A stretch of 64,000 nucleotides of DNA from Bacillota bacterium (GTDB taxonomy: Bacteria > Bacillota > Sulfobacillia > DUMF01). A model generated the notes under the pieces. That model saw nothing but the letters and a program-made list of their open reading frames with translations, was not told the DNA's origin and ran no database searches. Position numbers and translations under genes: made by a program. The DNA is taken from NCBI GenBank assembly GCA_012840015.1, contig DUMF01000025.1, positions 1 through 64,000 of the forward strand, read 5' to 3'. Shown piece after piece: positions 3,067 to 30,619 of this stretch; position 1 is the stretch's first letter, and each line of letters begins with the position of its first letter.

Positions 3067-4596
3067 GTGAGGCTCGTTACCGCGGACGAGATGAGACAAA
3101 TCGACAGGTACGCCATCGATACGGTAGGCATTCCGAGCCTCGTGCTCATGGAAAACGCAGGAGCGTCAGCTGCACGGGTAGCGATAGAAGAACTGGACGG
3201 CTTTCAGAGGGCGTTTGTGATTTGCGGCCGGGGTAACAACGGGGGAGACGGGTTGGTGGCAGCGCGCCATCTGTGGGAAGAAGGCAAGCACGTGGAGGTC
3301 TTCATCGTGGGAGACGGTGAGCTTAGCCACGATGCAGAAATCTTCCTGCGCCCGGTGGAGAAGCTTGGCATTCCCGTGAAGCGGGTGACAGCCCCACCGG
3401 CTGAACTCCAGCAGTCCGCAGGTCAGCTCATCGTAGATGCGCTGTTGGGGACCGGATTTTCGGGGGAAGTTCGAGAGCCTGTCGCTTCCGTGATCGACGC
3501 AATCAGCTCTGCCCGGGAGGGCGGCGCGCGCGTGCTGGCAGTGGACGTACCTTCCGGGCTAGATGCATCTACCGGTCAGGTCTCTAGACACTGCGTTAAA
3601 GCGGACGTCACCGTCACATTCCAGTTCATGAAGGTCGGGCTTGCCACGTACCCAGGGGCGGCTTACGCGGGGCGCGTGAAAGTCTGCGCGATAGGCATCC
3701 CGGATGTGGCGTTGGATTTCGGGAAACGGTACCAGCTCGTGGACCGGGACGTTATAAGGCAGTGGCTCTCCCCCAGAGATCCATTTGCGCATAAAGGTAG
3801 TGCGGGAAGAGTGGTAGTACTTGCTGGTAGCGAGGGATTTACTGGAGCGGCGCTGCTTTCGGCAAGGGGCGCGCTCAGAGCCGGTGCTGGGCTGGTGTCG
3901 TTGGGCGTACCTGGCAAGGTTTATCCCGTTGTAGCACCGGTGTCTCCGGAGACCATGGTGATCCCAATCGGGGATCAGGCCAGATTCGGGCTCAAAGACG
4001 TCGAAGATGCGGCCAAGCTCTGCTCGAACGCCCGGGCGGTAGCCATGGGCCCTGGGCTGGGTACCTCTGGTGAAACACCCGCCTTTGTGAGGGAGCTTTT
4101 GGAGCGAGTGGCGACGCCGGTCGTACTGGATGCGGATGCGCTTAATTGCTTAGGAGGAGACCTGTCCCCGTTGAGGCGTCGCAGCGAGCGAGGCTGGCAA
4201 ACGGTGGTTACGCCTCACCCTGGGGAGATGGCGAGGCTTTGCGGGGTTTCGCCTGCAGAGATACAGGCCAGTAGGATAGAGTGGGCATGGAAACTTGCTG
4301 GCGTTGGAGTGGTTTGTGTACTCAAAGGTGCCAGGACCGTAATCTGTTATGGGGGAGACTGCTTCATCAATCCGTCTGGGAACGGTTCTATGGCAGCGCC
4401 CGGGATGGGCGACGTGCTCACGGGAGTAATTGCCTCCTTCATCGCTCAGGGCATGGGTGTGCTGGCTGCAGCAGTCGTCGGCACTTATCTGCACGGGCTT
4501 GCAGCCGAATCGCTGGCGCTCGATCGCGGCATATTTGCCAGCCAGGTGGCTGATGGAATCCCAGCTACGCTATCGAGGGTACTTGCGGTCAGGTAG
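3067..4596 (+). CDS. nnr: Bifunctional NAD(P)H-hydrate epimerase / ADP-dependent NAD(P)H-hydrate dehydratase
   Basis: Repairs hydrated NADH and NADPH. The N-terminal YjeF_N domain (about residues 1-215) epimerises R-NAD(P)HX to the S form and shows VLMENAG and the glycine-rich GRGNNGGDG. The C-terminal ribokinase-like domain (about 225-505) dehydrates S-NAD(P)HX using ADP, and carries HPGEMARL and the phosphate-binding loop APGMGDVLTG. At 509 residues it is the usual length of the fused enzyme. A GTG start at 3067 lies 7 bases after the acpS stop. Nothing unusual is seen apart from the common GTG start. Confidence 0.95.
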   Translation: MRLVTADEMRQIDRYAIDTVGIPSLVLMENAGASAARVAIEELDGFQRAFVICGRGNNGGDGLVAARHLWEEGKHVEVFIVGDGELSHDAEIFLRPVEKLGIPVKRVTAPPAELQQSAGQLIVDALLGTGFSGEVREPVASVIDAISSAREGGARVLAVDVPSGLDASTGQVSRHCVKADVTVTFQFMKVGLATYPGAAYAGRVKVCAIGIPDVALDFGKRYQLVDRDVIRQWLSPRDPFAHKGSAGRVVVLAGSEGFTGAALLSARGALRAGAGLVSLGVPGKVYPVVAPVSPETMVIPIGDQARFGLKDVEDAAKLCSNARAVAMGPGLGTSGETPAFVRELLERVATPVVLDADALNCLGGDLSPLRRRSERGWQTVVTPHPGEMARLCGVSPAEIQASRIEWAWKLAGVGVVCVLKGARTVICYGGDCFINPSGNGSMAAPGMGDVLTGVIASFIAQGMGVLAAAVVGTYLHGLAAESLALDRGIFASQVADGIPATLSRVLAVR

Positions 4597-5266: not shown

Positions 5267-6043
5267 ATGGTCGTCATTGGTTTCAGCCTCGGAAGACGGC
5301 CGGGAGGCTTATATGGCTTGAATACATCCTATGTGACTTCCGTTATGGAGGCCGGGATAGTACCGGTGCTCATCCCTCCGCTTTCAGCCGGGACTGTAAA
5401 AAACAACGAAGAGGGCGGCGCCGAAGTGGCAGCATGCATCCACGGCCTTGTGCTCACGGGCGGAGGCGACATAGACCCTGCACTGTTCAACCGGCCAGGT
5501 GCTGCCTCCGTGCAGAACGTTCAGAGAGATCGGGACGAGACGGAAATGGCGCTGTTGCGCTCGGCACTTAAATTGGGGATGCCCGTGCTCGGTATTTGCC
5601 GCGGGATGCAGCTCATCAATGTGGCCTTGGGCGGTGACCTGATAGTAGATATTAAGACGGAGTATTTGACATCTGTGGCGCATGACGTGGACGATGATTC
5701 AGTAAGGCACCCTGTTAGGATTGCCTCAGATTCTAAAATATCCCGAATCCTGGATACGTGCGAGCTGAATACGAATAGCCACCACCATCAAGCGGTGCGA
5801 CGGGTAGCCGCGGGGCTCGTTGCGGTAGGGTGGGCTGAGGATGGCATTATCGAGGCGCTCGAGGGTAAGGGCGAGAATTACCTGGTGGGCGTACAATGGC
5901 ACCCTGAACGCCTGAGAGAGGAGAGTAGCGCCAGGCTTTTCGCTTCTTTCCTGGAGGCGGCGCGAGATTACAGGCGGAGGCGAGACTCGGTTGAGCGAAC
6001 GGGCCGAACTGCTGGTAGAAGTGACTCGAGGGCCGATCGTTGA
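5267..6043 (+). CDS. Class I glutamine amidotransferase-like hydrolase, peptidase C26 (PuuD-like)
   Basis: A 258-residue cysteine hydrolase of the gamma-glutamyl-gamma-aminobutyrate hydrolase family. The nucleophile Cys is in LGICRGMQLINVALGG, the His in GVQWHPERL, and the oxyanion/substrate segment LTGGGDIDPALF is clear. Family members cleave gamma-glutamyl amides. It lies 6 bases after the mazF-type gene and its 3' end overlaps the asparaginase gene by 53 bases, so these two amide hydrolases are probably co-translated. The exact substrate (gamma-glutamyl-GABA or another gamma-glutamyl compound) is not decided by the sequence. Confidence 0.86.
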   Translation: MVVIGFSLGRRPGGLYGLNTSYVTSVMEAGIVPVLIPPLSAGTVKNNEEGGAEVAACIHGLVLTGGGDIDPALFNRPGAASVQNVQRDRDETEMALLRSALKLGMPVLGICRGMQLINVALGGDLIVDIKTEYLTSVAHDVDDDSVRHPVRIASDSKISRILDTCELNTNSHHHQAVRRVAAGLVAVGWAEDGIIEALEGKGENYLVGVQWHPERLREESSARLFASFLEAARDYRRRRDSVERTGRTAGRSDSRADR

Positions 6044-7003: not shown

Positions 7004-8152
7004 GTGATAGCGATTGTAGGAGGCAACGTATATACGGGCAGGGGGAAACTGATACCTCGCGGCACTGTGCTCGTAGAGGGTGAGAGGATAGTGGCCGTGG
7101 GACAGGGTATAACCATCCCTCGCGATGCTCAAGTGAAGGACGTTTCGGGTATGACCGTGTTCCCTGGAATGATAGACGCGCACTGCCACGTGGGCCTTTT
7201 CGAAGAAGGATTGGGCTGGGAAGGCGATGACGTAAACGAGATCACCGATCCAATTACGCCCCAATTGCGGGCGGTGGACGGCATCAACCCCGAGGATGTG
7301 GGACTCAAGGAAGCAGCGCGGGCCGGAGTGACGGCGGTATGGAGCGCACCGGGGAGCGCCAACATAATCGGGGGGCAGGGAGTCGCACTACATACTGTGG
7401 GCCGATTCGTGGAAGATATGGTGCTGAGGGAGCCGTGCGGACTCAAAGCCGCTCTGGGGGAAAACCCGAAGCGATGCTATGGACTTGAGCTCAAGAAAAG
7501 CCCCTCGACACGAATGGGTTCTGCCGCAACGTTGCGCGAAACTTTGGTAAAGGCCCAAAACTATGCGCGAAAGAAGAAGCACGCCGAAGAAAAGGGAGAA
7601 CCGGTGGAAATCGATTTTAAGCTCGAGCCAATCGTTAAGCTGCTTAAAGGGGAGCTGACGTTGAGGCTGCACGCCCATCGGGCGGACGACATCATGACTG
7701 GCATTAGGATCGCGCGGGAGTTCGGTTTCCCGATTTGCATCGATCACTGCACAGAGGGCCATAAAGTGGCAGATGTGCTGGCGAGGGAGAGGATTCCGGC
7801 GGTAATTGGGCCATCCCTCACCGGCAGGGTCAAGGTCGAACTGAGGGAACTGGACTTCGCTACTGTGGCGGCCTGCGCTTCGGCTGGGGTGAAAGTGGCG
7901 ATCGCTACGGACCATCCTGTGGTACCTTCGAAGTATCTTCCACTGTGCGTGGGTCTTGCCATTAAGGCCGGATTAAGCTGGGACTATGCGCTACAGGCTG
8001 TAACCCTTAACGCTGCGGAAATAATCGGCATCGACGATCAGGTGGGCACCATAGAGGCCGGTAAACTAGCAGATATTTGCGTGGCTCAGGGCGACCCGTT
8101 TTCCATCGAGGGGAAGATGGTGGCTGTGATGGTCAAGGGGCAATGGCTATGA
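7004..8152 (+). CDS. Metal-dependent amidohydrolase
   Basis: An amidohydrolase-superfamily enzyme of about 382 residues. It has a composite beta-sandwich start (IVGGNVYTGRG), the metal-binding His-x-His in PGMIDAHCHVG, further His residues in RLHAHRADD and CIDHCTEGH, the Asp in ATDHPVV, and the closing GTIEAGKLADICV. Members hydrolyse cyclic amides or dipeptide-like bonds. GTG 6992 overlaps the asparaginase stop, but the near-perfect ribosome site GGGAGGTGAT (6987-6996) points to the GTG at 7004. It lacks features that would single out imidazolonepropionase, so it is not called HutI. The link to asparaginase suggests amide or cyclic-imide catabolism. Confidence 0.82.
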   Translation: MIAIVGGNVYTGRGKLIPRGTVLVEGERIVAVGQGITIPRDAQVKDVSGMTVFPGMIDAHCHVGLFEEGLGWEGDDVNEITDPITPQLRAVDGINPEDVGLKEAARAGVTAVWSAPGSANIIGGQGVALHTVGRFVEDMVLREPCGLKAALGENPKRCYGLELKKSPSTRMGSAATLRETLVKAQNYARKKKHAEEKGEPVEIDFKLEPIVKLLKGELTLRLHAHRADDIMTGIRIAREFGFPICIDHCTEGHKVADVLARERIPAVIGPSLTGRVKVELRELDFATVAACASAGVKVAIATDHPVVPSKYLPLCVGLAIKAGLSWDYALQAVTLNAAEIIGIDDQVGTIEAGKLADICVAQGDPFSIEGKMVAVMVKGQWL

Positions 8153-11473: not shown

Positions 11474-12249
11474 GCTTGCTGGATCTCTTTTTCCTAGCGA
11501 TAACTGCGACCGGCAGCGAGGGGTTTTATTTGCTGGCCCTGCCCCTCTTGTACTGGTGTGTGAACGTAGAACTGGCCTTCGAAGTGTGTTGCGTGTTCTT
11601 GAGCTCCATGTGGTGCAATTCGACGCTGAAGGAACTGTTCCGGGTGCCGCGACCGCCGCTGAGTTCGGTCAAAGGGTGGGCTTTCCCGAGCGGTCATGCG
11701 CAGGGCACTTCCTCCTTCTGGGGTTATCTGGCCTTCTTTAGGCCTTCGGCGCTGACGTTCAAACTGTTTGCCGCAGCGATAATCGTGCTGGTGGCCATAT
11801 CCCGAGTATACTTGGGCGTTCATTGGCCTTCGGACGTGGTGGGCGGCATTGTCATCGGTCTCGGCTGGGCTTACCTTCTGAGTAGACCTGGGCGGCTTCG
11901 CGCGGGAAGGAGCGCGGCCTGGCTATGTGCCGGCGTGCTGTTATATCTGTTGTTTTCCGGAGGAGATTCGTCCGCTCCGGCGGGAGCGCTGCAGGGACTG
12001 GCGCTCGGGCACCTTGGCCAGAAGAAGTGGATCGATATGGATACTTGCGGGCCGATGACCCAGAAAGTTTGGCGTTACCTCGTAGGGCTGGGGGTGATGA
12101 GCCTAGTGTTGTTTGGGCTAAGGGCGATATTGCCTGGCTCTGTAGGGTTCCGGTTCCTACGGTACCTAGCGACCGGTTTTGGAGCGACTTTCGTTGCACC
12201 GTGGTTGTTCGTGCTTACCGGCTTGGCGAAAGCGAGGACCGGTCGCTGA
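11470..12249 (+). CDS. PAP2-family membrane phosphatase
   Basis: An integral membrane lipid phosphatase of 259 residues. The three-part PAP2 signature is complete: KELFRVPRPP (K-x6-RP type), PSGHAQG, and SRVYLGVHWPSDVVGG with the catalytic His and Asp. Several hydrophobic segments surround the motifs, with extra membrane helices in the C-terminal half. ATG 11470 overlaps the tsaD stop (ATGA); the longer upstream frame lies inside tsaD and is ignored. Likely substrates are undecaprenyl diphosphate, phosphatidic acid or phosphatidylglycerophosphate; the sequence does not distinguish them. The end overlaps a convergent gene by 35 bases. Confidence 0.88.
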   Translation: MSLLDLFFLAITATGSEGFYLLALPLLYWCVNVELAFEVCCVFLSSMWCNSTLKELFRVPRPPLSSVKGWAFPSGHAQGTSSFWGYLAFFRPSALTFKLFAAAIIVLVAISRVYLGVHWPSDVVGGIVIGLGWAYLLSRPGRLRAGRSAAWLCAGVLLYLLFSGGDSSAPAGALQGLALGHLGQKKWIDMDTCGPMTQKVWRYLVGLGVMSLVLFGLRAILPGSVGFRFLRYLATGFGATFVAPWLFVLTGLAKARTGR

Positions 12250-22478: not shown

Positions 22479-23311
22479 TGCGGCGGCCTTGCTCCAGGAG
22501 GTTTTTCAAGAATCCATCGGCGCTCGTCGGTGGTATTATCCTGGGCTTCCTGGTAATCGTGAGTGTCGTGGGGCCTGCCGTGGTGCCGTATTCGCCTTAC
22601 AAGCAAGACACATCCATTAAGCTACGGGGACCTTATGCAGAACACTGGCTCGGTACCGACGAGTTCGGCAGAGACGTACTGAGCAGGCTAGTGCTGGGGT
22701 CGCGCTACTCCCTTTCGGCTGGGTTCGTTTCTGTGGGAATGGGTTTGGCAGGAGGACTTTTGCTGGGGGCGCCAGCTGGGTACTATGGGGGGCTAATCGA
22801 CCAAATGGTGATGCTGCTATGCGACATCCTGCTGGCCTTTCCGGGGGTTCTCCTTTCTCTGGCAATAACGATGGCGCTGGGGCCTGGAATCTACACGCCC
22901 ATGGTGGCTGTGGGCATAAGCTCCATACCCGTCTTTGCCCGGCTTGTACGGGCACAGTTTCTTTCGTTACGGAACGCCCAGTTCGTTGAAGCAGCACGCT
23001 CTCAGGGAGCGAGCGATGCTAGGATAGTGTTCAAGCACTTATTGCCCAACTCGATTGGGCCGCTCGTCGTTCAGTCTACGCTGAGAATGGGCTCAGCCAT
23101 ACTCACCACGGCGACTCTCAGCTTCCTTGGACAAGGAGCGCAGCCTCCCGAGCCTGAATGGGGTGCAATGCTCAACATGGCGGTACCATACTTTTGGACG
23201 GCGCCACACCTGGTGATTCTACCCGGGCTGGCCATAACCATCACCGTGATCGCTGTGAACTTATTGGGAGATGCGCTGCGGGATTTCGCAGACCCGAGGA
23301 CCCGTGAGTAA
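22478..23311 (+). CDS. Peptide-type ABC transporter permease, DppC-like
   Basis: A permease of 277 residues with the DppC opening RRFFKNPSALVGGIILGFLV, the LGTDEFGRDVLSRLVLGSRYSLSAG segment and the EAA loop EAARSQGASDARIVFKHLLPNS. ATG 22478 in the TGATG overlap with the previous gene is preferred to ATG 22442, which would extend it upstream by 12 residues without family similarity. It is the last gene of the importer operon; a new promoter for hutH starts 8 bases after its stop. Confidence 0.92.
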   Translation: MRRPCSRRFFKNPSALVGGIILGFLVIVSVVGPAVVPYSPYKQDTSIKLRGPYAEHWLGTDEFGRDVLSRLVLGSRYSLSAGFVSVGMGLAGGLLLGAPAGYYGGLIDQMVMLLCDILLAFPGVLLSLAITMALGPGIYTPMVAVGISSIPVFARLVRAQFLSLRNAQFVEAARSQGASDARIVFKHLLPNSIGPLVVQSTLRMGSAILTTATLSFLGQGAQPPEPEWGAMLNMAVPYFWTAPHLVILPGLAITITVIAVNLLGDALRDFADPRTRE

Positions 23312-23318
23312 AGGGCCG

Positions 23319-23348
23319 TTGCAGGCGGGCACGTCTATTACATATACT
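23319..23348 (+). promoter_or_regulatory. Predicted sigma-A promoter of the hut operon
   Basis: TTGCAG (23319-23324), an 18-base spacer and TATACT (23343-23348). Transcription would start near 23355, leaving a leader of roughly 95 bases before hutH that contains the HutP-like site and terminator described next. Confidence 0.65.
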
Positions 23349-23353
23349 CAAGA

Positions 23354-23415
23354 CAGGATCAAGTCCCACAGGCGATAGATGTGAGGGGGTGTCTTACATG
23401 CCCCCTTTTGTTTTT
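23354..23415 (+). promoter_or_regulatory. Predicted HutP-responsive antitermination leader
   Basis: Three NAG triplets with exact 4-base gaps: CAG (23369-23371), GCGA, TAG (23376-23378), ATGT, GAG (23383-23385). This is the spacing known for RNA bound by Bacillus HutP. A further CAG-GATC-AAG pair lies at 23354-23363. The last triplet runs into the 5' arm of an intrinsic terminator: GGGGG (23385-23389), loop, CCCCC (23401-23405), then TTTTGTTTTT. Bound HutP would therefore compete with the hairpin and let transcription reach hutH when histidine is present. The hutP gene itself lies just downstream of hutH. Confidence 0.72.
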
Positions 23416-23449
23416 GCGATGATAGGGTAACTTACAGGAGGGTGAAGGA

Positions 23450-25024
23450 GTGGCTGCGGTGTTGGCCTTGAACGGGCATTCATTAAGGCTGGAGGATGTT
23501 GTGGAGGTCGCTCGGGGTAGCGTGCAAGTGGAGATCTCCGAGGAAGCGCTCGCAAAAGTACGTGCTACGCGGGAGGTAATCGAGAAATATGTGAGAGGAG
23601 GCCTACCGGTTTACGGGGTAAATACGGGCTTCGGGGCCTTATGCGATACTTCCATACCGGCAGGGGCCTTGCGTCGGCTCCAGCGAAACCTCGTACGTAG
23701 CCACGCCAGCGGTGCGGGAGGGTTTTTCCCACGTGAAATCGTGAGAGCAGCTATGCTTCTCAGGGCCAACAGCCTTAGCCGTGGGCAATCGGGTGTACGT
23801 CCGATCGTGGTCGAGACCCTCGTGAAGATGCTGAACAAAGACGTTACCCCTGCGGTACACTCCGAAGGATCCCTCGGGGCAAGCGGGGATCTGGCACCAT
23901 TGGCCGATCTGGCTCTGGTCGTGACCGGAGGAGGACGCGCCTGGTACCGGGGGGAGCTCCTGGACGGACGGGAAGCTATGGAGAGAGCCGGGATTCTACC
24001 CATAGAGCTAGAAGCCAAAGAAGGACTGGCCCTCCTGAACGGGACCGCTTTCATGACGGCTATGGCTGTTCTGGCTTGTGACAAAGCGGTTCGGTACCTG
24101 GAAGCTCAAAACGCTGCAGCTGCGCTCTCGCTCGCGGGATTTGCCGGCACTGCAGTTCCGTACACGGAAAGACTGATCAAAGCCAGGGCGCACGAAGGTG
24201 CGCTCATTGTGGCCCGGCACATGCGGAGGTTGCTCGAGGGCAACAGAATGGTGGAGAGTGGCAAACGAAGGAAGGTGCAGGACCCGTACTGCTTCAGGTG
24301 CGTCCCCCAGGTTCACGGAGCGGCGGTGACAGCACTCCTTCACACTGCGTCCGTCATAGAAGTAGAGATCAACTCCGCCACCGACAACCCGCTCATCATC
24401 GATGGAAACGTTTATAGCGGGGGCAATTTTCATGGCCAGCCTGTGGGGAGCGTAATGGATTACCTGACAATCGCGATCACTTCAGTTGCGGCCATGGCGG
24501 AACGGCGGGTGAACCAATTGCTTCACCCTGGCCAGAGCGGCCTGCCTGCTTTTCTCACACCTGATCCCGGCCTCAATTCTGGGCTGATGATCGCACAGTA
24601 TACTGCCGCTTCTCTTGTAAATGAAAGCCGAGTGCTAGCTACGCCCGCCTCGATACACTCCATTCCGGTGTGCGCCGACCAGGAGGATCACATCAGCATG
24701 GCCACTTACGCGGCCCACAAAGCGCTCGAGGTAATGGGCAAAGTCACCCTGGTGAGCGCGATTGAGTTGCTGACGGCCGCACAGGCTGTTGACTTGAGAC
24801 TCGTGGGGCAAAAACCGAGTGAAGTTTTAGGAGACGCGCTGAGTTCGGTGTACGAAACGACACGGCAAAGAGTTCCATTCGTGGCTGAGGACGAATCGCT
24901 GGCCGAGCACATCGAGAGCATGGCATCGGCAATTGAAGGGGGAGAATTGCACGAGGCATTGAAGCGAAAGGAGGCCAACCTGGACTTAGAGAATACGTCT
25001 TATCGGGGCGATGCTCTTGGGTGA
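23450..25024 (+). CDS. hutH: Histidine ammonia-lyase
   Basis: First step of histidine breakdown: L-histidine to trans-urocanate and ammonia. The Ala-Ser-Gly triad (residues 144-146, within EGSLGASGDLAPLA) forms the MIO electrophile. VYGVNTGFG near residues 54-62 and QDxxS-like segment PVCADQEDHISM are family features. The 524-residue length is slightly above the usual ~505. GTG 23450 follows GGAGGGTGAAGGAG. It is the first gene after the HutP-type leader and overlaps hutP by 14 bases. Confidence 0.95.
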   Translation: MAAVLALNGHSLRLEDVVEVARGSVQVEISEEALAKVRATREVIEKYVRGGLPVYGVNTGFGALCDTSIPAGALRRLQRNLVRSHASGAGGFFPREIVRAAMLLRANSLSRGQSGVRPIVVETLVKMLNKDVTPAVHSEGSLGASGDLAPLADLALVVTGGGRAWYRGELLDGREAMERAGILPIELEAKEGLALLNGTAFMTAMAVLACDKAVRYLEAQNAAAALSLAGFAGTAVPYTERLIKARAHEGALIVARHMRRLLEGNRMVESGKRRKVQDPYCFRCVPQVHGAAVTALLHTASVIEVEINSATDNPLIIDGNVYSGGNFHGQPVGSVMDYLTIAITSVAAMAERRVNQLLHPGQSGLPAFLTPDPGLNSGLMIAQYTAASLVNESRVLATPASIHSIPVCADQEDHISMATYAAHKALEVMGKVTLVSAIELLTAAQAVDLRLVGQKPSEVLGDALSSVYETTRQRVPFVAEDESLAEHIESMASAIEGGELHEALKRKEANLDLENTSYRGDALG

Positions 25025-25463
25025 TCGTTTAGACACGATAGGTAAGGTTGCCTTGCGAGTGGTATTGGTAGAGGACCCGACGGTTGAGGTGACCGCCGCG
25101 ATGAAGGCAGGGTTTCGCGTGGTGCACGGGCACGTGGGATCCATGAACCTGGAAAAGGTGATCGCTGCCATCGAGACTGCTTCCAGGCGGGAGGGTATCG
25201 TGAGTGTGGAATATCCTGAAGACCACGCACTCTACCATTCTATATTGGACGCGCTCCATGGAGTGGGAAGAGGGCAACTGGCGCTTGGCAGCATTCTCCG
25301 CACGGCGGGTCTGCGCTTCTCGGTAGTGCGCGGTCCTCGGGTTGCCGGGGAGGTGGGCAGAGGAGAGTGGTTGGCAGTGGCGTTATACGGTCATATAGGT
25401 GGGCCGGTCAAGGGAAACGAACATGAATGCGTTGGCCTGGGCATATATCATTTGGGCCGGTGA
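25011..25463 (+). CDS. hutP: HutP, histidine-dependent antiterminator RNA-binding protein
   Basis: A 150-residue protein that matches Bacillus HutP through its length: [19 protein letters not shown], then [37 protein letters not shown] and [15 protein letters not shown]. The metal-binding histidines of Bacillus HutP (73, 77, 138) have equivalents at 72, 76 and 138. With L-histidine and Mg2+ the hexamer binds spaced NAG triplets in hut mRNA and prevents termination. It lies between hutH and hutU rather than first as in Bacillus, so basal readthrough would be needed to make it. Confidence 0.94.
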
Positions 25464-25477
25464 AGGGGGCACGTAGT

Positions 25478-27130
25478 ATGAGTTCACGCGTGGTGAGGGC
25501 GCCAAGGGGAACGACGCTTTCTTGCAAGGGCTGGATACAGGAAGCCGCTATGAGGATGCTTATGAACAACCTGGATCCAGAAGTAGCGGAGAGACCCGAG
25601 GATTTAGTCGTTTACGGCGGTATGGGCAAAGCCGCGCGCAACTGGGAGGCCTTTGACGCCATCGTTGCCTGCCTCAAAGAACTGGAGAACGATGAGACGC
25701 TGCTGGTGCAATCGGGTAAGCCGGTGGGGGTGTTTAAGACCCACGCCATGGCGCCGCGAGTGCTCATAGCTAACTCGCTACTTGTACCGAAATGGGCTAC
25801 CTGGGAGAACTTCTGGGAGCTAGAAAAGAAAGGCCTGATCATGTTCGGGCAGATGACTGCTGGCAGCTGGATCTACATCGGATCGCAAGGGATCATCCAG
25901 GGGACATACGAAACGCTTGCAGAAGCTGCGAGGCAACATTTCGGGGGAACACTGAGGGGCAGGCTCGTCGTGACGGCCGGACTCGGCGGGATGAGCAGCG
26001 CACAACCTCTAGCCATCACCATGAACGAAGGAGTGGCGCTGGTGGTGGAGGTGGACGAGGCCAAGATACAGAGGCGCGTCCGAACGGGATACTGCGAGAT
26101 GCAGGCGAAAGACCTGGACGATGCTATCCGCCTGGCAATGGAGGCCAAAGAAAAGGGTATTCCTCGTTCGATCGCGTTGCACGGGAATGCCGCGGAAGTG
26201 CATCCGGAGCTGGTGAGACGTGGCATAGTGCCCGACGTCGTAACGGACCAGACGTCGGCTCATGACCTTCTCAACGGCTACGTGCCTGCCGGATTGAGCG
26301 TGCAGGAGGCCGCCGAATTGAGGAAGCGCGACCCGGAAGAATACATCCGGCGTGCGAAAGAAAGTGTGGCCGTACACGTGACGGCGATGCTGGATTGGCT
26401 CAGGAAAGGCGCTGTTGTTTTTGACTATGGTAATAACATAAGACAGCAAGCGTTCAATGCCGGGGTCAAGGACGCTTTCGCGTTCCCAGGTTTCGTGCCG
26501 GCCTTCATCCGCCCGATGTTCTGCGAAGGCAAGGGTCCGTTCCGCTGGGCGGCGCTTTCCGGTGATCCCCAGGACATCTACCGCACTGACGAAGTGATTT
26601 TGAAGGAATTTCCGCACAACGAATCACTCGTGCGTTGGATAAAGATGGCCCGCGAGCGCATTCCGTTCCAGGGCTTGCCTGCCAGGATCTGCTGGTTGGG
26701 TTACGGCGAACGGGACCGCGCAGGCCTCATATTCAATGAGCTCGTGCGTAAAGGGGAAATCAAGGCTCCAATAGTGATCGGGAGGGACCACCTGGACAGC
26801 GGGAGTGTGGCCTCACCCAACAGGGAAACCGAATCCATGAAAGACGGCAGCGATGCCATCGCCGACTGGCCCATCCTCAACGCGCTCTTGAATACCGCAG
26901 CGGGTGCGAGCTGGGTCTCCGTACACCACGGCGGCGGGGTGGGCATAGGCTACTCCATCCATGCAGGGATGGTGGTCGTAGCCGATGGTAGCGCGGAGGC
27001 AGAGGAGCGGTTGAAGAGGGTACTCGTGACAGACCCAGGAACAGGTGTGATGAGGCATGCGGACGCAGGCTATGAACTCGCGATCGCGACCGCCAGAGAG
27101 AAAGGGATCAAGCTGCCGATGGTAAAGTAA
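25478..27130 (+). CDS. hutU: Urocanate hydratase
   Basis: Second step of histidine breakdown: urocanate to 4-imidazolone-5-propionate, using tightly bound NAD+ as electrophile. The 550-residue product shows [20 protein letters not shown], the [14 protein letters not shown] nucleotide segment, and the Cys-containing [20 protein letters not shown] region. ATG 25478 is chosen because the family N-terminus begins there; the upstream frame overlaps the end of hutP. It is 14 bases from the hutP stop, in one operon. Confidence 0.95.
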
Positions 27131-27164: not shown

Positions 27165-28064
27165 ATGGCGGAGAAACGCGTAGTGGAGTGCGTGCCTAAT
27201 TTCAGCGAGGGCCGCAGGCCAGAGATCATCGACGAAATAGTTTCAGAGGCTTCGCGCATGATGGGGCTCAAAGTGCTGGACGTTGCTCCAGATGCCAGCC
27301 ACAATCGCGTAGTAGTTACTATGGCCGGTTTGCCTGAAGCGGTGGAGGAAGCGGCTTTCCGCATGACTGCGAAGGCAGCACAGTTAATCGACATGAACCA
27401 GCATCGAGGGGAGCATCCGAGGATTGGTGCTACCGACGTGATACCGTTCGTGCCCGTGTCCGGTGTTACCATGGAGGAATGCTGCGAGATGGCGCGCAGG
27501 GTCGCCAAACGCATCGCGGAGGAACTGGGAATACCGACATACCTGTATGCTAAAGCAGCCACAAGGCCCGATAGAGTCAGGTTACCCGACATACGGCGGG
27601 GAGAGTATGAAGGACTGCGTGATGCCATCAAAGACCCAGCGCGCCATCCGGATTTCGGTAAGCCACAGCTTCACCCGACTGCAGGTGCTACCGTCGTTGG
27701 AGCTCGGCCGCCCCTCATTGCGTTCAACGCCAACCTGAATACTCAAGACGTGGAGATTGCCAAGGCCGTTGCCAAAGCGGTGCGGGAGTCCAGCGGGGGC
27801 CTGATGAACGTGCAGGCCAAGGGTATCATGATCGAGGAGAAAAAGTGTGCCCAGGTTACGATGAACCTGTTGGATTACGAGCGGACTCCTATGGCGCGAG
27901 TTCTGGAAATGGTGAAAACAGAAGCAGCCCGGTATGGCGTCCAGGTGATAGAAACCGAGATCGTCGGGTTGGTACCGCTCAATGCGCTCTTAGACTCGGC
28001 GTGCTGGTACCTCCGGGTAGGCAAATTCTCCAGACAGCAAATACTCGACCTGAGCGTAGAGTGA
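27165..28064 (+). CDS. ftcD: Glutamate formimidoyltransferase
   Basis: Transfers the formimino group of N-formimino-L-glutamate to tetrahydrofolate, giving glutamate. The 299-residue protein starts ECVPNFSEGRRPEIIDEI and has VLDVAPDASHNRVVVTMAG and HPRIGATDVIPFVPV, typical of the transferase domain. The C-terminal cyclodeaminase domain of bifunctional FTCD is absent. It closes the hutH-hutP-hutU run, so this organism uses the folate-linked end of the pathway. Imidazolonepropionase (hutI), needed between HutU and this step, is not in the window. Confidence 0.93.
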   Translation: MAEKRVVECVPNFSEGRRPEIIDEIVSEASRMMGLKVLDVAPDASHNRVVVTMAGLPEAVEEAAFRMTAKAAQLIDMNQHRGEHPRIGATDVIPFVPVSGVTMEECCEMARRVAKRIAEELGIPTYLYAKAATRPDRVRLPDIRRGEYEGLRDAIKDPARHPDFGKPQLHPTAGATVVGARPPLIAFNANLNTQDVEIAKAVAKAVRESSGGLMNVQAKGIMIEEKKCAQVTMNLLDYERTPMARVLEMVKTEAARYGVQVIETEIVGLVPLNALLDSACWYLRVGKFSRQQILDLSVE

Positions 28065-29239: not shown

Positions 29240-30619
29240 ATGAAGGAACGGGGCGGCGCGGAACCCTTCAAAATCAAGATGGTGGAACCAGTCGGCCTGA
29301 CGACCAAGGCCCAAAGAGAGGAAATACTCAAGAAGGCGGGGTATAACCAGTTCAGGATCCCCGCCGAATATGTCTACATCGACCTCATGACTGATAGCGG
29401 CACTTCCGCCATGAGTGACAACCAGTGGGCGGGCATTATGATGGGCGATGAGTCATATGCCGGAGCGAGGAACTTCTACCACCTGCGGGACACAGTGAGG
29501 GAGATTTTCACCTACGAGTACGTGATACCTACGCACCAAGGGAGAGCTGCCGAAAACATCCTGATGTCCGCAGTGCTCTGGCCGGGTAAGTACGTCTTGG
29601 GCAACATGTTTTTTGACACGACCGAAGCGCACATAGCCCACAAAGGTTGCAAGGGCGTATCGTTCATGATTCCCGAGGCATATGACACGCAGAGCACCCA
29701 CCCGTTCAAGGGGAACGTCGATGTCGTACGCTTAGAGGAATTCATCCGAAAAGAGGGCGCCAGCAAGGTCGGCATGATTATCATTACCGTGACGTGCAAC
29801 AATAACGGGGGACAGCCGGTATCTATGGAAAACGTGCGGCAGGTGAGCGCGGTGGCACGCAAGTACGGGATACCGTTGTTCTTCGACTCCGCGCGCTTCG
29901 CCGAGAACTGCTATTTCATCAAGAAGAGAGAAGCAGGCTACGGAGATCGCAGTATCCTGGAAATCGCAAACGAAATGTTCTCATACGGCGATGGAGCCAC
30001 CTGCAGTGCAAAAAAGAGCGCCCTGGTCAATATCGGCGGCTTCTTAGCCATGAATAGCAAGGAGCTATACGACAAGTGCCTGGAATACCTCGTACTGTTT
30101 GAGGGGTTCGCTACGTATGGTGGTTTGGCGGGACGGGACCTGGAGGCCATGGCCAGGGGTTTGAGGGAAGGATTGGACGAAGCCTACCTCGAGGACAGGA
30201 TCGGGCAAGTGGAGTACCTGGCTTCGGCTCTGATGGAAGCGGGGGCAAGCGTGGTATTGCCGCCAGGCGGGCACGCAGCCTACGTTGATTGCAAGAAGAC
30301 TGTACCCCATCTCAGCTGGGACAAGTTCCCCGCAGATTCCCTGGGCGTAGCGCTTTACCTCGATTGCGGGGTACGAACGGTGGGGCTAGGTGCGCTGGCC
30401 TTCGCCGAGAAAGACCCCGTGACGGGAGAATGGGTGCCTCCAGAATTGGAACTCCTCAGGCTAGCGGTGCCGAGGAGGGTATATACAGACAGGCATATGA
30501 ACGTGGTTGCGGAAGCGATGGGGAGAGTTCTGAAGCGCCCCGAACAAATCCGCGGCCTCCGCTTGGTAAAAGAACCGGCCAGGCTGCGTCATTTCTTGAG
30601 TGAGCTGGAGCCGATCTGA
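29240..30619 (+). CDS. tnaA: Tryptophanase (tryptophan indole-lyase)
   Basis: PLP-dependent beta-eliminating lyase: tryptophan to indole, pyruvate and ammonia. The 459-residue protein is similar to both tryptophanase and tyrosine phenol-lyase. Residues that separate them favour tryptophanase: Asp 126 in FFDTTEAH (Thr in TPL), a Leu in GVRTVGLG where TPL has its phenol-binding Arg, and His 451 in LRHFL (Phe in TPL). The PLP lysine is in CSAKKSALVNIGG (258-259), and FFDSARFAENCYFIK gives the PLP Asp. No TnaC-type leader could be confirmed. The next gene, a radical SAM protein, follows after 14 bases. Confidence 0.9.
   Translation: MKERGGAEPFKIKMVEPVGLTTKAQREEILKKAGYNQFRIPAEYVYIDLMTDSGTSAMSDNQWAGIMMGDESYAGARNFYHLRDTVREIFTYEYVIPTHQGRAAENILMSAVLWPGKYVLGNMFFDTTEAHIAHKGCKGVSFMIPEAYDTQSTHPFKGNVDVVRLEEFIRKEGASKVGMIIITVTCNNNGGQPVSMENVRQVSAVARKYGIPLFFDSARFAENCYFIKKREAGYGDRSILEIANEMFSYGDGATCSAKKSALVNIGGFLAMNSKELYDKCLEYLVLFEGFATYGGLAGRDLEAMARGLREGLDEAYLEDRIGQVEYLASALMEAGASVVLPPGGHAAYVDCKKTVPHLSWDKFPADSLGVALYLDCGVRTVGLGALAFAEKDPVTGEWVPPELELLRLAVPRRVYTDRHMNVVAEAMGRVLKRPEQIRGLRLVKEPARLRHFLSELEPI

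Follow-up and report, generated by a model that had tools for sequence, protein, structure and literature searches.

Histidine ammonia-lyase is encoded by hutH on contig DUMF01000025.1 of a Bacillota bacterium (GenBank assembly GCA_012840015.1), where the gene is preceded by a short leader and followed by hutP, and this arrangement raises the question of whether the leader is a switch operated by the HutP protein. The window analyzed in this study is the stretch of 64,000 nucleotides from position 1 to 64,000 of the forward strand of this contig. An earlier note made from its letters alone (the original prediction) had read the hutH leader as a complete HutP antitermination switch and hutP as part of the same operon. 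This proposal is upheld by conservation, covariation, an independent match of R1 (a covariance model from which the window was excluded), and the identity of HutP, and we regard the hutH leader as very probably a HutP-controlled transcription attenuator. The evidence lies in the parts of the leader, their conservation, the family-wide covariation of an alternative helix, the overlap of that helix with a terminator, and in HutP itself, through its identity and key residues; from these, HutP binding, its dependence on histidine and metal, and readthrough are predicted in this organism.

Organization of the hutH leader

The leader, which is 95 bases long, lies between the stop codon of oppC at 23311 and the GTG start codon of hutH at 23450. 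Its parts are as follows.

23319-23348, plus strand: putative promoter TTGCAG-18-TATACT; weak (-10 element 5/6, -35 element 3/6)
23363-23367, plus strand: predicted 5' arm GUCCC in the slipped register, with the pairing shifted by one base
23365-23367, plus strand: predicted 5' arm CCC of the antiterminator helix, at the position of the covarying 5' arm in about 30 relatives and in the R1 match
23369-23371, plus strand: NAG triplet 1, CAG, preceded by a conserved A at 23368; kept in 32 aligned leaders
23376-23378, plus strand: NAG triplet 2, TAG, read from the sequence; kept in 32 aligned leaders
23383-23385, plus strand: NAG triplet 3, GAG, which also forms bases 1-3 of the terminator 5' arm
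23387-23389, plus strand: predicted 3' arm GGG of the antiterminator helix, common to the terminator 5' arm
23383-23415, plus strand: intrinsic terminator, a GAGGGGGUGU / AUGCCCCCUU hairpin (RNA) of 10 pairs with a free energy (dG) of -14.1 kcal/mol, followed by a T-run
23436-23441, plus strand: ribosome-binding site AGGAGG of hutH, a Shine-Dalgarno-like sequence

Three triplets upstream of hutH are the mark of a HutP leader, and those at 23369, 23376, and 23383 are separated by exactly four bases each. The array (23369-23385) runs into the terminator 65 bases before hutH, so that the overlap of triplets and terminator expected of such a leader is also present. The terminator reads GAGGGGGTGT-CTTAC-ATGCCCCCTT in the DNA (23383-23407) and GAGGGGGUGU-CUUAC-AUGCCCCCUU in the RNA; it is a G-rich hairpin of 10 bp, and its T-run occupies 23406-23415. 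A second cluster of three NAG triplets, located about 20 nt downstream in B. subtilis (site II), was not found, as the window contains no NAG between 23386 and 23422; this absence is the same as in most relatives. Upstream, two extra triplets are located at 23354 (CAG) and 23361 (AAG), spaced N4 from each other and N5 from the latter to 23369. The CAG at 23354 would be absent from the RNA because the -10 element implies a start site at about 23355. The letters described in the original prediction were all confirmed: the promoter hexamers (TTGCAG at 23319-23324 and TATACT at 23343-23348, with a spacer of 18), the triplets, the terminator, and the T-run. The description of the promoter as complete holds for the -10 element, with its 5/6 matches; the -35 element agrees at 3/6 positions, and the promoter scan reported no plus-strand promoter at 23319-23348.

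Two other pairings of the leader were considered and dropped. A private antiterminator hairpin, ATGTGAG/CTTACAT (23379-23385 with 23393-23399), buries triplet 3, and no counterpart was seen in the leaders of relatives; an outer helix, AAGAC/GTCTT (23350-23354 with 23391-23395), needs a start upstream of the one based on the -10 element.

Conservation and covariation of the element

About 50 related leaders were taken into the comparison, with relatives obtained from whole-genome searches; a contig scan alone yielded one relative. Genomes are referred to below by G numbers, contigs by C numbers, and loci by L numbers. Hut-type HutP is found in six genomes of the class, and a six-sequence profile extended the set by about 20 genomes of the phylum and by over 30 from the class of G457, a genome with the Bacillus-type order hutP-hutH-hutU. 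The leaders share the element X-A-NAG-N4/5-NAG-N4/5-NAG-G-X' with complementary arms X and X', such as CATTGCCT/AGGCGATG in G534, AGCCC/GGGCT in G457, GTAACTC/GAGTTAC in G051, ATACCC/GGGTAT in G555, and TGTC/GACA in G681. In the comparison with other genomes that the original prediction had suggested, the NAG array recurs before hutH: it is kept in 32 aligned leaders, including its N4/5 spacers. The element stands before hutH in dozens of genomes with differing upstream genes. G051, the closest relative (hutP 69-72%), matches the window in gene order, and its leader contains the identical TAG-GCGA-TAG core; the nearest hutH without HutP (G039) directly follows hutU and has no leader.

Across 30 non-redundant hut leaders, a short helix with strongly covarying arms carries the three triplets in its loop. 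The pairing of its arms was scored in one fixed register over the first five arm positions, with the triplet array chosen blind to pairing: 134 of 150 pairs are standard, versus 106.9 (standard deviation 3.9) when arms are exchanged between leaders, and none of 20000 permutations reached the observed value. The excess persists without the CCC class (83 of 95 versus 63.5 permuted). In alignment A2, which comprises 32 leaders and excludes the window, double changes occur in all six pairs, and 86.5% of the cells are paired, versus 68.8% after shuffling and 36-59% in slid registers.

Overlap with the terminator is the norm: in 38 of 40 elements, three or more of the five inner 3'-arm bases also belong to the best terminator. 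The search behind this count started near the 3' arm and thus favored terminators overlapping it. Since the 3' arm is shared with the terminator 5' arm, the helix displaying the triplets and the terminator are mutually exclusive. The idea that the window leader is a compact variant was not borne out: the array abuts or overlaps the terminator 5' arm in the same 38/40 elements, and in the hutH-first leaders of G038, G346, and G603 the start codon follows the element by 44-77 bases, which makes them as short as the window leader. What sets the window leader apart is its weak predicted antiterminator helix of three G-C pairs and not compactness.

Six Bacillota leaders (G051, G028, G333, G491, G162, and G038) resemble the window in being hutH-first or having an unlinked hutP, and in placing A-NAG-N4-NAG-N4/5-NAG-G in a short helix that overlaps the terminator. 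Their helices are mostly 4-9 bp (about 3 in G162) and score 24-39 bits with R1, in contrast to 3 bp and 17.5 bits in the window.

The top R1 match within the window covers 23365-23389 on the plus strand (17.5 bits; next best, 12.4). Across 154 genomes of the class, matches with an expectation value (E) below 0.05 are confined to three genomes with hut-type HutP (G028, G038, and G051), in each of which the match lies before hutH. Across 369 genomes of the phylum, the strong matches comprise the hut-type genomes, G460 (two in tandem before hutH), and G480 (at a contig end). No Rfam family reached its gathering score in the window or in the six related loci scanned, and R1 is therefore useful for finding other HutP targets.

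HutP and the hut genes

The genes downstream of the leader are as follows.

23450-25024, plus strand: hutH, histidine ammonia-lyase, GTG start (TIGR01225 equivalog, 587.9 bits versus a cut-off of 539; PF00221)
25011-25463, plus strand: hutP, histidine-dependent antiterminator protein (NF002838, 166.8 bits versus a cut-off of 155; PF09021, 4.5e-24)
25427-27130, plus strand: hutU, urocanase (PF17391/PF01175/PF17392), given as the longest open reading frame; the real start may be further in
27165-28064, plus strand: ftcD-like formiminotransferase, the last of the hut gene set (PF07837/PF02971)

The start of hutP overlaps the end of hutH. NF002838, whose cut-off the window HutP exceeds, is the NCBIfam equivalog "histidine utilization transcription antiterminator HutP". 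The window HutP aligns over its full length with the B. subtilis HutP structures (4.5e-39; PDB 1vea), and its His72, His76, and His138 align with the metal-binding His73, His77, and His138 of that protein, in agreement with the earlier statement that the metal-binding histidines are present. The histidines of HALYH...H and the ET and RT segments are conserved. Proteins of the HutP family form hexamers that bind histidine and Mg2+, properties predicted here for the window HutP.

A second HutP-like protein is encoded in the same genome (L072, G000:C2:131697-132083). It scores 27.7 bits with NF002838 and fails the cut-off; the metal-binding histidines are kept, and the ET, RT, and E137 positions are missing. 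The PF09021 family is above its cut-off in 255 of 399 genomes of the phylum, and HutP-family proteins are thus present in most phylum genomes, mostly outside the hut type. This wider family was considered as a source of more switches and set aside, as R1 finds no comparable element outside the genomes with hut-type HutP except in G460 and G480.

Proposed mechanism and alternative explanations

Without histidine, GAGGGGGUGU would pair with AUGCCCCCUU, and transcription would end before hutH. If histidine and a divalent metal are present, HutP would bind the three NAG triplets at 23369-23385, which would be held in the loop of an alternative hairpin formed by CCC (23365-23367) and GGG (23387-23389), or by GUCCC and GGGGU. 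This hairpin would take up the terminator 5' arm and let transcription proceed into hutH-hutP-hutU-ftcD, and HutP made from the downstream gene would close a positive loop. The helix in the window, which has three G-C pairs in the family register or five pairs including two wobble pairs when slipped by one base, probably needs the bound protein to form.

Several observations weigh against or qualify this assignment. The -35 hexamer TTGCAG matches TTGACA at three of six positions, which speaks against a complete promoter, and the predicted window helix is among the weakest of the family, with its outer pairs lost. The R1 score is by itself insignificant genome-wide (E of 1.75, with two other sites at 17.7-17.8 bits), and the call therefore draws on the position directly before hutH and on conservation. 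R1 matches inside unrelated genes in G306, G500, and G461 place the noise level at about 25-28 bits; such matches outscore the window element, which is thus not callable from R1 alone. G412 and G254, with HutPs also very close to that of the window (66-76%), have a differently built hutH leader with a longer loop. Finally, the original prediction had suggested folding the leader with the triplets masked; in such a 64-nucleotide fold, the terminator stem is shortened to 7 pairs and is not removed. Because a 7-bp terminator survives, the antiterminator helix, blocking of the G-run, or steric exclusion by HutP must contribute.

An unlikely, though not negligible, alternative is that the same switch works without a favored alternative hairpin, with HutP using two triplet clusters to wrap and melt the terminator. 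Such two-site action and the second triplet cluster have been reviewed for B. subtilis (PMC7430163), and the third triplet of the window does lie in the terminator arm. Past 23385, however, the window terminator has no NAG. A second triple cluster occurs downstream of the element in 3 of 30 leaders, which is not commoner than in control windows (1-4 of 30) and is not a family-wide feature, whereas the alternative helix covaries throughout the family. With this helix covarying in about 30 non-redundant leaders, the choice between an antiterminator hairpin and two-site melting becomes a simple question of compensatory mutations.

Taken alone, the triplet motif could be of chance origin. The window contains 27 NAG-N4-NAG-N4-NAG arrays, versus 33 +/- 5.6 in shuffled sequences, so that the triplets by themselves are not above chance, and the stability of the folded leader is ordinary (z of -0.25); only the context and the conservation among relatives make the array significant. 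Given how common such arrays are, and given that the hairpin is located 72 bases past the oppC stop codon (23311), one might read it as the plain terminator of the upstream peptide-transporter operon, with hutH transcribed from its own promoter and the triplets due to chance. We consider this very improbable, as the stretch from the terminator to hutH has no convincing plus-strand promoter, the R1 match is independent of the window, and the upstream genes vary among the dozens of genomes that carry the element before hutH. Hardly more credible, and if anything slightly less so, is a mainly translational switch, in which the CCCCCUUU arm, once freed, would base-pair with AGGAGGG at the ribosome site and HutP would repress or tune translation. 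One fold with the triplets unpaired does pair the C-rich arm with the region of the ribosome-binding site, and G381 and G453 have triplets and helix with no terminator found; that pairing, however, is a single-sequence prediction, and a terminator is present in 38/40 elements, including the window. The attenuator with an alternative hairpin thus remains our preferred reading.

The two elements before hutH for which no terminator was found are L153 (G381; 5596-5632) and L272 (G453; 7559-7595); they possibly act by translational control or by another termination mechanism.

Comparison with known systems

The TRAP and LicT/SacY-type systems also rely on a protein-controlled choice between a terminator and an antiterminator, and TRAP also recognizes NAG triplets. 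The window switch differs from them in its triplet spacing of 4-5 bases and in its regulator, HutP, whose gene belongs to the operon; no TRAP or BglG-type protein is involved.

The B. subtilis hut system is alike in its NAG triplets spaced by four bases, its intrinsic terminator before hutH, and its HutP orthologue, which has identical metal-binding histidines. In contrast to Bacillus-type loci, in which hutP precedes hutH, the window has the order hutH-hutP, which places the element at the very start of the transcript; it also has a single cluster of three triplets, and these are CAG, TAG, and GAG rather than all TAG. Oda et al. (2004, Mol Microbiol 51:1155; cited in PMC12456014) already refer in their title to an antiterminator RNA of B. 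subtilis that bears HutP sites, and the window switch therefore belongs to a known type. The window site extends this textbook attenuation system to a lineage far from Bacillus and to a reversed gene order.

A probable wider set of HutP targets

The comparison is worth more than the window site itself. It newly provides the family-wide covariation, arrangements in trans, tandem copies, and probable extra targets. The element lies directly before hutH with hutP on another contig in G038 and G603 and kilobases away in G453 and G346, and tandem copies occur in G416, G501, G460, and G051. A reading somewhat favored by these data is that of one phylum-wide HutP element, a hairpin with a single three-NAG set in its loop that is exclusive with the terminator, in which case two-cluster melting would not be general and the histidine regulon would be wider. 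If true, this regulon would take in unlinked hutH genes, tandem copies, a peptide-type ATP-binding cassette (ABC) transporter, an MttB-like corrinoid methyltransferase, and a tryptophanase-like lyase.

Probable extra targets are a transporter operon (G346 and G501), an MttB-like methyltransferase (G460), and a tryptophanase-like lyase in a hutP operon (G265). The transporter elements, L269 (G501:C58; 11233-11269) and L270 (G346:C83; 21819-21855), precede a ferredoxin-like gene together with an operon for a peptide-type ABC transporter. In the window, a similar operon (substrate-binding protein-oppB-oppC) immediately precedes hutH and has no element of its own.

In G460, locus L296 (G460:C129) has an element at 4185-4221 before the MttB-like corrinoid methyltransferase gene and a tandem pair at 5892-5928 and 5965-6001 ahead of hutH and other hut genes. 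In G053 and G346, too, MttB-like genes adjoin hutP or an element. The association suggests a possible demethylation of methylated histidine feeding the hut pathway, for which a literature search returned no direct precedent.

In G265, an element with a strong terminator (L167; 6662-6698, minus strand) precedes a tryptophanase/tyrosine phenol-lyase-like gene followed by hutP, and no hutH was found adjoining this locus. A related lyase gene in the window (29240-30619) is without such an element.

A second leader design is seen at L074 (G051; 11600-11750), L149 (G412), and L154 (G254): the helix is GACCT/AGGTC, the loop is eight bases longer, and the terminator 5' arm lies inside the loop. G051 carries this design and a canonical element in tandem. 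A branched-chain-type permease gene with an element in G053 is a weaker candidate target.
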